Shown: positions 1 to 5,464 of the stretch, one piece after another
How the letters are laid out: every line of letters begins with the position of its first letter
How positions within the stretch are numbered: the first letter of the stretch is position 1
Source of the DNA: Candidatus Bipolaricaulota bacterium
GTDB lineage: Bacteria > Bipolaricaulota > Bipolaricaulia > UBA7950 > UBA9294
Reading direction: 5' to 3'
Length of the DNA: 41,725 nucleotides
Assembly (NCBI GenBank): GCA_030612485.1
Contig: JAUWNS010000002.1
Span: 1 to 41,725, forward strand
Notes under the pieces: model-generated
What the model saw: the letters and a program-made list of their open reading frames with translations, nothing else
What the model was told of the DNA's origin: nothing
Databases searched by the model: none
Position numbers and translations under genes: made by a program

Positions 1-2723
1 GAGATTCCATCGCCATCGGTGTCCATCTTCAATGGATCGGCATGATCGCGAAGATCACCTGAAGCCCAGGTATCCACTTCCAGGCCGTCGATCACGCCAT
101 CGCAATCGGTATCCGCAACGCACGGGTCCGTGTCATAGGTAGACCATTCTTCGCCATCGAGGAGGCCGTCATCATCAGAGTCCTCATCGTTTGGATCAGG
201 ACGGCGGCTGCCCCCATAGTAGCCACCTGCGACCTGTATCTCGAGGAGGTCCGTCATACCGTCGCCGTCAGTGTCCCTTTCGGTGAAGTCTGTATCAGTT
301 GTATTCTGCTCCACCACATCGGGAAGGCCGTCGCCATCAGCATCTCTGGTCACGGTGTAGATGTACACGTCTATTCCCCATTTAATGAGCCCGATGATGA
401 ACGCCTTAATACCTTTTAAGGGAATGGTGCTTCCAGTGACTGTAACGACGATGAATCCACCACCGACTCCCCAAATAGGATCAGGCAAAGGTCTAGTGAG
501 TATCTCTTTGAGAGACCACGCAAGGGAAACGGCCTGCAACCCCGAGACAGAATTTCGCAGGTTATAGAGGAGTCCGGTAATGTCCGTTCCCCCGCTTCCG
601 CAGCCGTCAGTGCACACAGCGCCTGTGGTACCGTCTCCTGGTTCCGGCGGAGGCATGCAGTCTTTCCTGTCGACGTTCTCGGAGGCGACCGATTCAAGAT
701 AGATCCTATCACTGGGATCATAACTCACCGTAACGTTGGTCATGGGCAGACTGCTGATGAGCGTAAAAGCCGTCGTCGGAGCGTCGCCCACGTCCGTTTC
801 CTCGAATGCACCATCCTCATCCTCGTCCGCCATGGCTATGAAGTCACCTTGAGGAAGACTAGGAGGAGTCCCCTTTCCACTGTTGTCCGGGTGATCCTCA
901 ACGGTGGCAGTGCAAATCACTCCGGTAGGCGTACAATCGTAGTCGGTGAGCGTCGTCTCAGTGGGACGCCGCATGAGTGCCTGGACGAAGATGATCCCAC
1001 TCTCTGCGTAGATCCCGTCATTGGGCTCGTACTTGATCCCCAGAGCTTCGTAGTCACCGTGGAGATCGAGCCCCGTGCACATGTAGTCGAAAGACCAGGT
1101 GGAGGTTGAGCCGTTCGTGCTAGGCCCAGAGAGATTGGTGATCTGGCCGTCTCCCGGCAACAGCAAAAGCTCCACAGTCATTGTCCCATCGGGGGCAGTG
1201 CCACCGCCGACCTCGGCTCCATCTTCTACCTGTACTTCGATGCCTCCCGGTTCGTAGACAAGGAGGGCTTCGGTGGGGCCCTCCACCGTGATCTTGGAGG
1301 GGCGAAGCTCCACGGCGAGTAGTTGAGTCGTCAACTTTGGTGTATGTACGGAAGAGCCGGAGTAGGTGGCAGTGATGGTTGTAATGCCTTCATCCCAGGC
1401 GCCAGGAGTGTAGGTCACCGTGCAATTGCCATTTGCGTCCAAAGCGAGGGTATCGACGGAGAACGTCCCGTTCTTTCCGCCATCATCGAAGGTCACAGCA
1501 CCTTGTGGAATCTCAGGTGTCGGCGCGGTGGTGTCGTCTTCGACATGAATCATGCAGGTGACTGCCTGACCGATGTAGGCCGTCGGCGGCGAGCAACTGA
1601 GCGTGATGTCGGCTGCACGCTTGACGATCTCCTGAACGTAGGTTCCAGTGCTTGGTTCATGAGTGTAGATGGGTGGCGGACCGGGGTCCCACACCTCTCC
1701 TTGGTACGAGGCGGTGATCCCGTGCGACGTTGTATCTCCGCTCGTCGGAGTGTAAGTGAAGCTGCACCACCCTGCCGCATCGAGATTGCAGCTTGCCGCG
1801 CTCAAGTCTCCTTGCCCCGAAGGGGAAACCGACAAATCCACCGTGCCCGCCGTTATGGGATCACCCGTTGTGGTATCGACAACCTGCACCGTATACGTTG
1901 CGGTGTTGTTGACGATCAGCGGAGTGTCCGCCCCCATCACTTCGGTACGGGTCGCTGGGTCTGTGTACTCGTGCCATACGTCGTCGTAGCTCCCGACGAA
2001 GTTGCCGTCACCACTGTAGGTGGCAACAAGAGTCTTCACTCCCTCCGTAGTTGAGCCGGACGTCGCACTCAGACCACAGGACCATTCTCCGGTGACGGGA
2101 TCAATATCTGTCACGCAGCTATTCCCCTCACCGTCGCTCACCGTCACGGTTCCCGTCGGATTGCCATTCCCCGGCCAATTCACGTCTACGTCTCCCGTGA
2201 CGAGGTACGATTGCCCCAGCACAGAAGGGTCGGGGACATCGGTGTCAATAGAGGTTGATGTACTCGCCCGGTTGACTGTTTGGAAGAGCGGATCTGAGGT
2301 GCTCGGATTGGTATCCACATCACCCGGATACTCTGCAGTGATCGTATGCGATCCCACAGAAAGGGTCGAAACACTCAACGTCGCTTCATAAACCGGCGGT
2401 GCAGGAGGAATAGAAACATCACTTAGATCTGCAGTACCCAAGATCGTCACACCATCGTAGAAAGTCACGGTCCCAGTTGGGATCCAAGGCTCGTCACAGG
2501 CGACAGTTGCCGTGAACTCGACCGTCTGGCCGAGTACCGACGGATTGGGAAATGAGCTTAGGGTCGTCGTCGTATCAACCGGCTGAGCAAATCCCAAGAA
2601 TCCGATCGATATGCACGCCAATAGGGCAAATACCACGGTCCATCTTCTTGATTTATGGAGTAGAGATGAGTACATGTTAGACCTCGCTTCGTATCGTCCA
2701 TTTATCTTCATTCCCTGTTTCAT
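1..2723 (-). CDS. Secreted Ig-like repeat and thrombospondin type 3 repeat protein (C-terminus beyond window)
   Basis: An uninterrupted minus-strand frame runs from 2723 off the window edge, 907 codons visible. The N-terminus has a basic stretch and a hydrophobic core (VVFALLACISIGFLGFAQ), so it is exported. Residues ~50-480 hold tandem bacterial Ig-like domains of the Big_3_5 type, with recurring patterns such as PSVLGQTVEFTATV, GTVTFYDG and ITATYSG. Near residues 800-907 come Asp-rich calcium-binding thrombospondin-3 repeats (DADGDGLPD, DTDGDGMTD). The start at 2723 is chosen because AGGAGG ends 5 bases upstream, overlapping the stop of the preceding gene; an internal ATG at 2675 is the alternative. 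It is co-transcribed with the barrel gene 9 bases upstream and so probably under the c-di-GMP riboswitch. Likely a cell-surface or matrix protein; ligand unknown. Confidence 0.85.
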   Translation of the reverse strand, partial: MKQGMKINGRYEARSNMYSSLLHKSRRWTVVFALLACISIGFLGFAQPVDTTTTLSSFPNPSVLGQTVEFTATVACDEPWIPTGTVTFYDGVTILGTADLSDVSIPPAPPVYEATLSVSTLSVGSHTITAEYPGDVDTNPSTSDPLFQTVNRASTSTSIDTDVPDPSVLGQSYLVTGDVDVNWPGNGNPTGTVTVSDGEGNSCVTDIDPVTGEWSCGLSATSGSTTEGVKTLVATYSGDGNFVGSYDDVWHEYTDPATRTEVMGADTPLIVNNTATYTVQVVDTTTGDPITAGTVDLSVSPSGQGDLSAASCNLDAAGWCSFTYTPTSGDTTSHGITASYQGEVWDPGPPPIYTHEPSTGTYVQEIVKRAADITLSCSPPTAYIGQAVTCMIHVEDDTTAPTPEIPQGAVTFDDGGKNGTFSVDTLALDANGNCTVTYTPGAWDEGITTITATYSGSSVHTPKLTTQLLAVELRPSKITVEGPTEALLVYEPGGIEVQVEDGAEVGGGTAPDGTMTVELLLLPGDGQITNLSGPSTNGSTSTWSFDYMCTGLDLHGDYEALGIKYEPNDGIYAESGIIFVQALMRRPTETTLTDYDCTPTGVICTATVEDHPDNSGKGTPPSLPQGDFIAMADEDEDGAFEETDVGDAPTTAFTLISSLPMTNVTVSYDPSDRIYLESVASENVDRKDCMPPPEPGDGTTGAVCTDGCGSGGTDITGLLYNLRNSVSGLQAVSLAWSLKEILTRPLPDPIWGVGGGFIVVTVTGSTIPLKGIKAFIIGLIKWGIDVYIYTVTRDADGDGLPDVVEQNTTDTDFTERDTDGDGMTDLLEIQVAGGYYGGSRRPDPNDEDSDDDGLLDGEEWSTYDTDPCVADTDCDGVIDGLEVDTWASGDLRDHADPLKMDTDGDGI

Positions 2724-2732
2724 CTCGCCCTC

Positions 2733-4043
2733 CTAAAACACCACGCCGGCGGTGACCGCGGCGCGCGTTAGTCCGTATCGGCCGAATGTCGCCTGCACCG
2801 TTACAACCGCTGGACTGAACCTAAAGGTCAGTGTGCTCCCCAAACTGGCAAAGCCGAACTTCTCCGCTCGTTGCGCAAAGGACACACTCGTCCCTGCGGA
2901 GAAGATCCCCTGAGATAGCGACAGCCGCATCGAGAGGCCGGTCATTCCTTTCTCCAGACCGGAGGCTGTAGTAGAGAACCTCCCCGTCATCGCTCCCAGA
3001 TTGAGCGAGGTGCCGAAACTGAACGACATCGACTTGAGATCCATCGTGTCCAGGGCAAAGGCCACACGGAACGGATCCATGCTAATCGAAAGCGTAACGC
3101 CGCCGAATTTGGGAGGGAAGGGAGTAAGGGTTACGGAGCTGCTGATACTCACCTTGTCCCACAGCTTGCCGGAGAGGCTGATTGTCGTGTTAAAGCTTGT
3201 CGATTCAGTACCAGCGGGTGATTTCGTGAAAGCGAAGCTCGTGCCGAGCATGACCGACTGAAAGGCCGTGCCGTAGAGGTTGATATCGGCCAGTTTGATC
3301 CCGCTGATTCCGAATCGGGCAAAAAAGTTATCCGTCACAACGCTGCCGGTGGCGGAATACCCCTTAACGCTTCTCCCTGATGAGGACGCGTTTATTCCGA
3401 GGCTCGCACTCACCGATACACCCATCTGCGCACGCCAGCTGGCGGAGATTAAGCTTCCAATAGCGAAGCTCTGACTTTGCACAGGGTAGTACAAGGGATC
3501 GTGGGAAGACCCGGGGTTTGGAAAGTTGATGTCCTCCAGCATTGCGAGGGTGGTTATGTCGAATCCAGAGATGGATGTTGAAACGGTTACCCGCGCCTTG
3601 ACAAACATGATGTCCCCTGGGGGGATGACCACCGAGTTCGGGAGGTTGTTCACATCGATGACTGCCTCAAACGGGACGGCAAACCATACCTCGGGGACGA
3701 TGCTCAGTTTGTCGAGCGCAATCTCATAGAAGGGCAATTCGCCGAGGTTTATCGGTGTCTTGAACACCAGGTGCTCTGGCCCAGCCGTGTTCACCACTGC
3801 ATCGATGTTCAAGTGAGCGAAACCCAAGTCAACATCCAGGATGAGGTTCGATGCGATGGCGAACTCCAGCATGACAAACTCACTCGGCGTATCTAGCTTG
3901 ATCTCGCCCGTCGTCGTCGTCGGAATCCGCCGAGCGACAAGATCTAAGCCGAAACGCCCAGAGAGTTGCGCCACTGTCGTAACTCCTCCCAAGATCACGG
4001 CCACGATCAAGAGCAGAATCCCCAAAAAGGCCTTCTTAGGCAT
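2733..4043 (-). CDS. Putative secreted/outer-membrane beta-barrel protein
   Basis: A 436-residue protein I cannot place in a named family. It begins with a signal peptide (MPKKAFLGILLLIVAVILGG, then VTTVAQ). The rest is dominated by alternating hydrophobic/polar beta strands rich in Ser, Thr and Gly, and the chain ends in TAGVVF. A terminal Phe is the usual signature of BAM-inserted outer-membrane proteins, so a barrel is inferred. ATG at 4043 is preferred over the upstream in-frame TTG at 4049, because GGAGG lies six bases before the ATG and touches the TTG. It is the first gene behind the c-di-GMP-I riboswitch and is followed after 9 bases by the Ig/TSP3 gene. It might be the transporter, anchor or a structural partner of that protein. 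A purely periplasmic beta-rich protein is not excluded. Confidence 0.7.
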   Translation of the reverse strand: MPKKAFLGILLLIVAVILGGVTTVAQLSGRFGLDLVARRIPTTTTGEIKLDTPSEFVMLEFAIASNLILDVDLGFAHLNIDAVVNTAGPEHLVFKTPINLGELPFYEIALDKLSIVPEVWFAVPFEAVIDVNNLPNSVVIPPGDIMFVKARVTVSTSISGFDITTLAMLEDINFPNPGSSHDPLYYPVQSQSFAIGSLISASWRAQMGVSVSASLGINASSSGRSVKGYSATGSVVTDNFFARFGISGIKLADINLYGTAFQSVMLGTSFAFTKSPAGTESTSFNTTISLSGKLWDKVSISSSVTLTPFPPKFGGVTLSISMDPFRVAFALDTMDLKSMSFSFGTSLNLGAMTGRFSTTASGLEKGMTGLSMRLSLSQGIFSAGTSVSFAQRAEKFGFASLGSTLTFRFSPAVVTVQATFGRYGLTRAAVTAGVVF

Positions 4044-4072: not shown

Positions 4073-4156
4073 CTGTAGCGATTTCTTAAAAAGCCAAACG
4101 CCCTCCGATCACTCGAAGAGCGTCCCAAGAAATATCACCACATAGCGTCGCTACAG
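4073..4156 (-). other. Inverted repeat enclosing the leader terminator
   Basis: Minus-strand CTGTAGCGA (4156-4148) and TCGCTACAG (4081-4073) are perfect 9-base complements flanking the terminator hairpin. They could make an outer helix. Whether it competes with or stabilises termination is not clear from the sequence. Confidence 0.5.
4088..4123 (-). terminator. Intrinsic terminator in the riboswitch leader (expression platform)
   Basis: Read on the minus strand, ACGCTCTTCG - AGTGAT - CGGAGGGCGT forms a 10-bp stem with two G.U pairs, and the following TTGGCTTTTT is a U tract. It lies 50 bases after the c-di-GMP aptamer and 45 bases before the barrel gene, so it probably serves as the transcriptional expression platform. 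Confidence 0.7.
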
Positions 4157-4172
4157 TCACCAGCTCTCTCCC

Positions 4173-4248
4173 CGACCCCAGCAGCCCGGCTATCTCGTCA
4201 GATCCGTGGCTTTGTATCCCTGCCTCCCAGCAGGTTTACCTTTTTCAA
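4173..4248 (-). promoter_or_regulatory. Cyclic-di-GMP-I (GEMM-I) riboswitch aptamer
   Basis: The minus-strand leader carries the conserved GEMM-I elements in order: GGTAAACC; a 6-bp stem CCTGCT/GGCAGG capped by a GGGA (GNRA-type) tetraloop; GGATACAAAGCC; a second stem ATCT-GACG-AGAT; and the tetraloop-receptor side AGATAGCCGGGCTGCTGG. This matches the Vc2-type consensus (AAACC, GNRA loop, CAAAGCCACGG, GCCGGG). Two small differences (ATACAAAG for ACGCAAAG, weak P1) do not alter the fold. It lies 36 bases after the promoter and before an intrinsic terminator, so c-di-GMP should set read-through into the barrel and Ig/TSP3 genes. The direction (ON or OFF) is not determined. Confidence 0.9.
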
Positions 4249-4290
4249 GGTTTATTCTGTAGGCTATTGCTAACCCCGCAAACACCGATC

Positions 4291-4319
4291 AGTATATAAT
4301 AATCATAGTCATTTGTCAA
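4291..4319 (-). promoter_or_regulatory. Sigma70-type promoter of the riboswitch operon
   Basis: Minus strand: TTGACA (4319-4314), a 17-base spacer, TATACT (4296-4291). Transcription would start near 4284 and give a leader of about 240 nt holding the riboswitch. Confidence 0.8.
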
Positions 4320-4606: not shown

Positions 4607-5464
4607 TCACCAAACAACTTCATCGATGATCTCCCCTTCCGGAGTGATCAAGAAGACTTCGTCGTGTTCGTCGTTCAGGTAGAGCCCCTGGCCATCATAC
4701 GTTGGGTTATAGGTATCGATGCACACCGAATACGGTTCGTCCGGATTGAGCAGCGTATTTGGAGGGAAAGAGTAGCTCCCTTCCAAGTCACTGATCCTCC
4801 AACCTCCAATATCCACGGGGGCAGTGGAGACGTTAAGTAGCTCTATACACTCCCCTATACGGTCTACCGCGTGGATGATGACCGGGTGGACAGCAGCGGA
4901 GAGAGCGGGTTCTCCAGAGGTGCTTCCAGCTACCGAGCGGAGTTCTTCCCAAAGCCGGTTGAACTCCATAGCGTACCGCTCCGGAACCGTCAGGTTTGCT
5001 GTTGGCGCAGAACAGTAGATGAATACCACGTTTTCGTAGTTCTCCTTGTCAGCGGTATCCGACCAGTCGTAGGATCCGGTTATCAGCAGCGTTCCATCGA
5101 TTAGGGCAAACTTGTGGTGGAATAAGCCCGGGGGACCAACCACGATCACAGGAATGCCAGTAGAGATCAGCTTCTCATACTCCCCTCCAAACATCTTATC
5201 CTGATCCACCCCGAGGATTACACGAACCGTGACCCCGCGTCGAGCTGCTCGAACTACCGCGGCTCCAAGCTGGTCGTCGGTAAAAGAGAACAACGCGATA
5301 TCGATGCTCTTCCTCGCTCCGTCAATGGCTTGGATGATCGCCGTTTCAATAACCCCATCTACATCCGGCGAGACGAAGTAGCTCTTTATCGAACAAGTTT
5401 GCGCGGCTACGACGACACCTGTCATCAACACAAACACCACAATCAGGACCAGTTTTCTCATCAT
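4607..5464 (-). CDS. Secreted phospholipase D-like protein with C-terminal lamin-tail domain
   Basis: 285 residues. A signal peptide (residues 1-21, ending VVVAAQ) is followed by a PLD-type domain (~25-165) with one HKD motif: H116, K118, D123, then GS in LLITGSYDW. The N-terminal part (IIQAIDGARKSIDIALFSF) is typical of PLDc_2 proteins; with a single HKD, such proteins act as dimers. Residues ~190-285 form a lamin-tail-like (LTD) Ig fold, with ECIELLNVS, DIGGWRISD and the closing DEVVW. The combination suggests an extracellular or periplasmic nuclease or phosphodiesterase. ATG at 5464 has GGAGG six bases upstream. It stands alone on the minus strand. Confidence 0.85.
   Translation of the reverse strand: MMRKLVLIVVFVLMTGVVVAAQTCSIKSYFVSPDVDGVIETAIIQAIDGARKSIDIALFSFTDDQLGAAVVRAARRGVTVRVILGVDQDKMFGGEYEKLISTGIPVIVVGPPGLFHHKFALIDGTLLITGSYDWSDTADKENYENVVFIYCSAPTANLTVPERYAMEFNRLWEELRSVAGSTSGEPALSAAVHPVIIHAVDRIGECIELLNVSTAPVDIGGWRISDLEGSYSFPPNTLLNPDEPYSVCIDTYNPTYDGQGLYLNDEHDEVFLITPEGEIIDEVVW

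Follow-up and report, generated by a model that had tools for sequence, protein, structure and literature searches.

The locus lies in a window of 41,725 nucleotides (the whole stretch of DNA that was analysed) and consists of a long leader followed by two genes, all on the minus strand. Its features are:

4319-4291 (4291..4319), minus: sigma-70-type promoter TTGACA-17-TATACT, 11 of 12 consensus letters
4249-4176 (4176..4249), minus: c-di-GMP-I aptamer, GGC variant (RF03167), located by covariance model
4156-4148 (4148..4156), minus: 5′ arm of an outer helix, CTGTAGCGA, perfect 9-bp complement of 4081-4073
4125-4096 (4096..4125), minus: intrinsic-terminator-like hairpin, located by pattern match
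4092-4088, minus: run of five T, 3′ of the terminator hairpin
4081-4073 (4073..4081), minus: 3′ arm of the outer helix, TCGCTACAG, with TGTGGTGAT as alternative partner
4055-4050, minus: GGGAGG, read from the sequence
4043-4041, minus: ATG of the barrel gene, read from the sequence
4043-2733 (2733..4043), minus: predicted outer-membrane beta-barrel protein of 436 aa, with an N-terminal hydrophobic helix and a C-terminal Phe
2723-3 (3..2723), minus: large surface protein, first 907 aa, open at the window edge, with Big_3_5 and then TSP3-like repeats

The order on the minus strand is promoter, aptamer, 5′ arm, terminator hairpin, T-run, 3′ arm, GGGAGG and ATG, with 132 nt between aptamer and ATG, and the surface-protein ORF starts 9 nt past the barrel gene. 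The proposal of a preliminary description of the sequence that promoter, aptamer, terminator and a two-gene operon form one unit is supported.

The barrel protein has no match in Pfam or NCBIfam at E≤0.001. In an AlphaFold2 model built from a 27-sequence alignment (pLDDT 77.3, pTM 0.65), an N-terminal helix is followed mostly by strands up to the terminal Phe, and the earlier designation as a beta-barrel is upheld by this model, though by no Pfam or NCBIfam family. The best 50 rows of a Foldseek search of the PDB include FimD ushers, porins and TonB-type proteins, at TM scores of 0.15-0.44 by query length, values too low for a function to be assigned to the barrel. For the surface-protein ORF, Pfam finds Big_3_5 (E 1.9e-41) and Big_1 alone. 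Of the Ig/TSP3 architecture first proposed, the TSP3 part consists, in the window ORF, of DxDxDG-type repeats recognised by eye, with no Pfam entry.

The barrel gene is followed by a long ORF at every one of the 22 loci examined but L052, a Fraserbacteria record. These 21 comprise L008, L010 and 19 of the 20 in the L045-L066 set, where two loci ran off and most ORFs were followed to the end of the stretch examined. The downstream ORF starts between -20 and +12 nt from the barrel stop. Six of these ORFs are complete (2373, 2368, 2274, 2138, 1840 and 1730 aa), indicating that the 907 aa in the window are only the first part of the protein. Three of the complete downstream proteins were scanned, and each carries multiple Big_3_5 domains together with 7-8 TSP3_bac repeats. 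Among the large downstream proteins, P0123 and P0124 share a similar C-terminal stretch of about 100 residues, GDFDGDG ... YAFxNxRVxQPR, which lies outside the listed Pfam matches and is a possible export or anchoring signal. Directly upstream of the leader and on the same strand, at 4607-5464 (-), the window encodes a PLD-like protein with a lamin-tail domain; by eye, the end of an LTD-like gene also precedes the aptamer in L004.

In a cmscan of the whole window, the aptamer at 4249-4176 (-) is assigned to RF03167, c-di-GMP-I-GGC (clan CL00126), with 61.9 bits against a gathering score of 59 (E 2.2e-12), a margin above the cut-off of just 2.9 bits. It is the sole gathering-level Rfam match listed for the 41,725 bases. 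An overlapping match of the same clan with a lower score is present at the same site, and is probably RF01051, the family that is best for the orthologous leaders L003, L006, L013 and L048. The preliminary description had named a GEMM-I aptamer of RF01051; the c-di-GMP-I kind stands, and the family is amended to the GGC variant. This variant was reportedly first described by Weinberg and colleagues in 2017, and in the accessible portions of the literature it is mentioned as a list entry or template.

The alignment to RF03167 shows P1, P2 and P3 and the expected ligand-contact bases; the P2 loop is GGGA, and so is a GNRA tetraloop, as had been claimed. P1 is weak, three of its six pairs being G-U. 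The aptamer has G at 4240, A at 4213 and C at 4181, which we take to be the Vc2 ligand-contact positions G20, A47 and C92. The inferred ligand is c-di-GMP. A G at the G20 position is typical of most c-di-GMP binders, and the GGC family is itself named c-di-GMP-I in Rfam. Both points weigh against the sensing of some other cyclic dinucleotide, such as c-AMP-GMP, to which rare GEMM variants respond according to the consulted part of one report (PMC7266159) and which we consider very unlikely here.

Scoring of the 7998 best-matching candidates gave 172 homologs of the barrel at E≤0.001; of the best 120 of these, three bear an organism name, Candidatus Bipolaricaulota or Bipolaricaulis. Viral contigs yielded no confirmed relative of the barrel. 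Fourteen barrel loci are found on genome contigs, of which eight are titled Bipolaricaulota, Bipolaricaulis or Acetothermia, one Fraserbacteria and one Atribacteria. The lineage is known from metagenomes and its named relatives are Candidatus Bipolaricaulota, in agreement with the initial view of it as uncultivated. Three orthologous loci, L001-L003 (82-84% identity), have the same leader as the window from promoter to ATG. L048 (73%) and L078, the leader of which lies at a contig end, are further relatives with the same leader order. The promoter occupies the same place in L001-L003 (TTGACA with TATACT or TATAGT) and in L048 (TTGACT/TATAAT).

The aptamer family extends well beyond these loci. 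RF03167 is found at E≤0.001 in at least 94 of 100 genomes of the phylum of G001, and above its cut-off in at least 86, and RF01051 matches occur in at least 94 of the 100 genomes of the same set; the phylum searches for both families used stricter filters, and the figures are those among the matches listed. Among the matches listed for 14 control genomes there is no RF03167 (0/14). GGDEF domains are present in all four of the related genomes tested (relatives, as distinct from the window's own genome), and GGDEF proteins in Bipolaricaulota are mentioned in the accessible part of a paper on biofilm origins (PMC10086821).

Other RF03167 copies (L029, L034, L084, L019, L016, L044, L093, L099 and further loci) precede secreted-looking ORFs. 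Judged by eye on their first 60 residues, some of these resemble subtilisin-like proteases (VVAVIDS) and others small signal-peptide proteins. Partial RF03167 matches also occur on the same strand as full ones, 17-25 bases away (G002:C1:39490-39639, G003:C8:24348-24569 and G096:C30:10586-10735), suggesting tandem or degenerate double aptamers.

Six of the seven barrel copies with at least 46% identity have an upstream aptamer above a gathering score, of RF03167 in G001, G002 and G004 and of RF01051 in G003, G006 and G096; the copy in G005 has no upstream aptamer. The more distant set comprises 18 tabulated full-length copies; it excludes matches that are split or partial, which occur in G026, G060 and G072-G076. 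Within it, G013 reaches the RF01051 cut-off, the second copy in G014 scores 51.6 bits with RF03167, below the cut-off, three have weak scores (G008 26.3, G011 29.9 and the second copy in G009 33.7 bits) and for 13 no upstream aptamer was found. In the untabulated split and partial set, L068 has an RF03167 match on the strand opposite its barrel. The frequent lack of a recognisable aptamer at distant copies would suit a leader that has become unresponsive, its aptamer being a relic, as would the Bc1 RNA of Bacillus thuringiensis, which is described in the consulted part of a paper as binding c-di-GMP without changing downstream expression (PMC11218506). However, the window and the five leaders closest to it all retain aptamer, P1 and terminator hairpin (by eye in L078), and we regard a relic as most unlikely.

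Different elements occupy the position upstream of the barrel ORF in other clades. One clade has a 65-base hairpin-like element, AGGAGGGG ... CCCCTYCT, conserved on the plus strand at L009:5755-5819, L011:3991-4055, L013:3392-3456 and L014:2328-2392, with a mean column identity of 90% over 86 columns. Its core pattern is present as a single copy in each of four genomes and absent from the remaining 96, and in L053, L056, L057 and L058 no Rfam match at E≤0.05 overlaps it. It is possibly an undescribed structured leader RNA. A third clade has a different, purine-rich hairpin, GGGAGCG ... CTCCC, at L005:5674-5747 and L006:5708-5777 on the plus strand, with a similar one by eye in L004. The leaders were also read for a small conserved ORF following GGAAGGUGA; this idea was dropped, as no start, frame or length is common to them.

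Taken together, we put at about 85% the probability that a c-di-GMP riboswitch controls this operon, a figure that excludes the direction of control. The proposed mechanism is transcription attenuation at 4125-4088, which would govern both the barrel and the surface-protein gene. An intrinsic terminator is predicted between aptamer and gene, and its stem is paired in all four aligned leaders (the window and L001-L003). Its T-run starts 3-4 nt past the stem, so the terminator is not ideal. Binding of c-di-GMP would stabilise P1 and so alter formation of the terminator. For the window, folding models lean towards an ON switch: with P1 formed, UCGGGGAG, just 3′ of P1, would be free to pair with the terminator 5′ strand, CUCUUCGA, and with P1 absent it would be pulled into a hairpin. 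Control in this direction would raise the surface system at high c-di-GMP.

Upstream pairing of the terminator 5′ strand was computed for RNA from the start of P1 to just before the terminator 3′ strand, with P1 free or forced, and compared with 100 shuffles. In the window it rises from 0.04 to 0.62 on forcing P1, with 1 of 100 shuffles as high, and in L003 from 0.30 to 0.86 (4/100). The rise in L001, from 0.70 to 0.83, is weak (12/100), L002 goes from 0.82 to 0.78 (84/100), and L048 falls from 0.63 to 0.33, with 97 of 100 shuffles higher. Over the five leaders the P1-forced antiterminator signal is clear in two, weak in one, absent in one and opposite in one. With a longer 5′ end the free and forced values are 0.05 and 0.62 in the window, 0.59 and 0.87 in L003, 0.72 and 0.82 in L001, 0.64 and 0.86 in L002, and 0.29 and 0.23 in L048; as the shifts in L002 and L048 show, the values depend on the stretch that is folded.

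The reverse arrangement, an OFF switch in which c-di-GMP promotes termination of the barrel operon, draws on the loss of upstream pairing in L048 and the slight loss in L002. The window and L003 behave in the opposite way, beyond most shuffles, and the adhesin precedent, Bc2, is ON; we therefore hold OFF control to be rather unlikely. At the T-run itself the terminator has a probability of 0.98-1.00 in each of the five leaders, whether P1 is present or not, so any effect must be kinetic, and a kinetic ON switch is the model favoured for the window, with the orthologs in disagreement. Downstream pairing of the P1 3′ strand is distinct from shuffles in the window (12/200) and is not in the other five leaders. 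Stem listings, partition functions computed with P1 free or forced, and shuffles gave no antiterminator or anti-P1 helix consistent among the orthologs; for this reason no shared switching mechanism is claimed.

The terminator is enclosed by the outer helix, the perfect 9-base inverted repeat between 4156-4148 and 4081-4073 that had been remarked on from the start and is present as described. Dinucleotide shuffling gives at least one perfect 9-base inverted repeat in 44 of 1000 cases for the 244-nt leader and in 5 of 1000 for the 106-nt platform, where the real leader and platform each contain one; the outer helix exceeds chance. Its pairing is full in three of five orthologous leaders, and in the other two is imperfect or shifted, and energetically unfavoured. 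Across the window and L001-L003, every one of the 74 cells of the outer helix and terminator stem is paired, and two of the pairs have changed at both positions; for control partners displaced by 1-3 columns the paired share is 30-61%, a comparison biased in favour of the structure since this was derived from the same sequences. Among 500 column shuffles of the four leaders, 39 reach the observed covariation score and 60 the number of doubly changed pairs. With L078 and L048 included, 94.2% of the 52 outer-helix cells are paired, and 56 of 500 column shuffles reach each of the two measures; L078 is mismatched at one position, and L048, in this register, at two, with two gaps besides. The sequence comparisons thus lend real but modest covariation support to the outer helix and terminator stem. 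A shifted helix read by eye in L048, UGGUC-U-CGG with CCGGACCG, was rejected as energetically not favoured.

A platform model, R1, built from the window and L001-L003 and searched in 100 genomes, gave 8 matches in 6 genomes at E≤0.1, strong in its own sources L001-L003 alone. Of the five weaker matches, L078 retains the helix apart from a single mismatch; in the remaining four it is not convincingly kept. The enclosing platform was accordingly discarded as a phylum-wide device.

Outer-helix probabilities were computed with P1 free or forced over four choices of RNA ends. On forcing P1 the window goes from 0.00-0.01 to 0.78-0.93, and L001 from 0.00-0.01 to 0.81-0.99. L003 has the helix either way (0.91-1.00 free, 0.95-1.00 forced), and L002 varies with the 5′ end folded (0.10-0.91 free, 0.20-0.95 forced). 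L048, in its shifted register, gives 0.00-0.44 free and 0.00-0.04 forced, and L078 0.00-0.03 and 0.00. Of the six leaders, four are thus predicted to form the helix and two to couple it to the aptamer. When P1 is absent, the 3′ arm of the window has TGTGGTGAT as its partner, as it does in the free minimum-energy fold.

The 3′ arm emerges past the T-run, so the outer helix belongs to read-through RNA, in which alone it would form, and has no part in the ordinary termination decision. The antitermination or stacking role first suggested for it is not borne out, given this order and folding tests that yield no antiterminator common to the orthologs. Since the window and L001 are predicted to form the helix only with P1, it may be a mark of read-through mRNA with bound ligand, and could perhaps, as a speculation, influence the stability of that mRNA.

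Compatible with attenuation by c-di-GMP as the main explanation is a tentative and somewhat doubtful reading of the outer helix as a second device on the read-through mRNA, acting on stability or translation and coupled through P1. The P1-dependent helix in the window and L001 and the pair changes in orthologs argue for it, as do the combined transcription-translation effects of the long Bc1 platform of B. thuringiensis, according to the available part of the source (PMC11218506). However, L003 forms the helix regardless of P1, L002 depends on the 5′ end, and L048 and L078 form none; the 3′ arm in the window has its other partner without P1 and stops 17 nt short of GGGAGG (4055-4050); and the platform model is strong solely on the sequences from which it was made. 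A more specific version, which would make the helix a separate type of expression-platform element, is improbable: the 5′ arm would be hairpinned with the P1 3′ strand in the unliganded state and given to the 3′ arm with ligand, locking the leader of the escaped transcript in a compact form and setting the life or translation of the very long surface-protein mRNA. If true, it would make this a riboswitch that retains a record of its decision past its escape from termination.

The nearest precedent comes from B. thuringiensis, where the Bc2 RNA, a c-di-GMP-I switch of the ON type, has a terminator ahead of the collagen adhesion protein gene cap (PMC4933901, consulted in part). Both have a c-di-GMP-I aptamer, an intrinsic terminator in the 5′ UTR and a surface-protein target in one transcript. 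They differ in phylum and target; Bc2 is ON by test, whereas the direction in the window is inferred, and the available part of the Bc2 paper mentions no enclosing helix. Bc1 likewise joins a c-di-GMP-I aptamer to an unusually long expression platform, with expression unchanged by c-di-GMP, but according to the accessible text it has two terminators 28 bp apart (PMC11218506), and the window has one terminator inside a longer-range helix. RF03167 (CL00126) accounts for the sequence and structure of the aptamer, above a curated cut-off; Rfam models the aptamer, whereas the platform and operon of the window are lineage-specific. A literature search of partial coverage returned no paper joining Bipolaricaulota or Acetothermia with a riboswitch, and within that search the earlier view of the barrel partner and outer helix as not previously known stands. 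The aptamer itself looks ordinary; it is the operon link and the terminator-enclosing helix that look new.

The locus would tie c-di-GMP to a conserved gene pair, a barrel and a large Ig/TSP3-type surface protein, in a mostly metagenomic phylum in which c-di-GMP-I-GGC aptamers are nearly universal among the genomes searched. It also offers a small platform element for study, an enclosing helix that is predicted to depend on P1 in the window.
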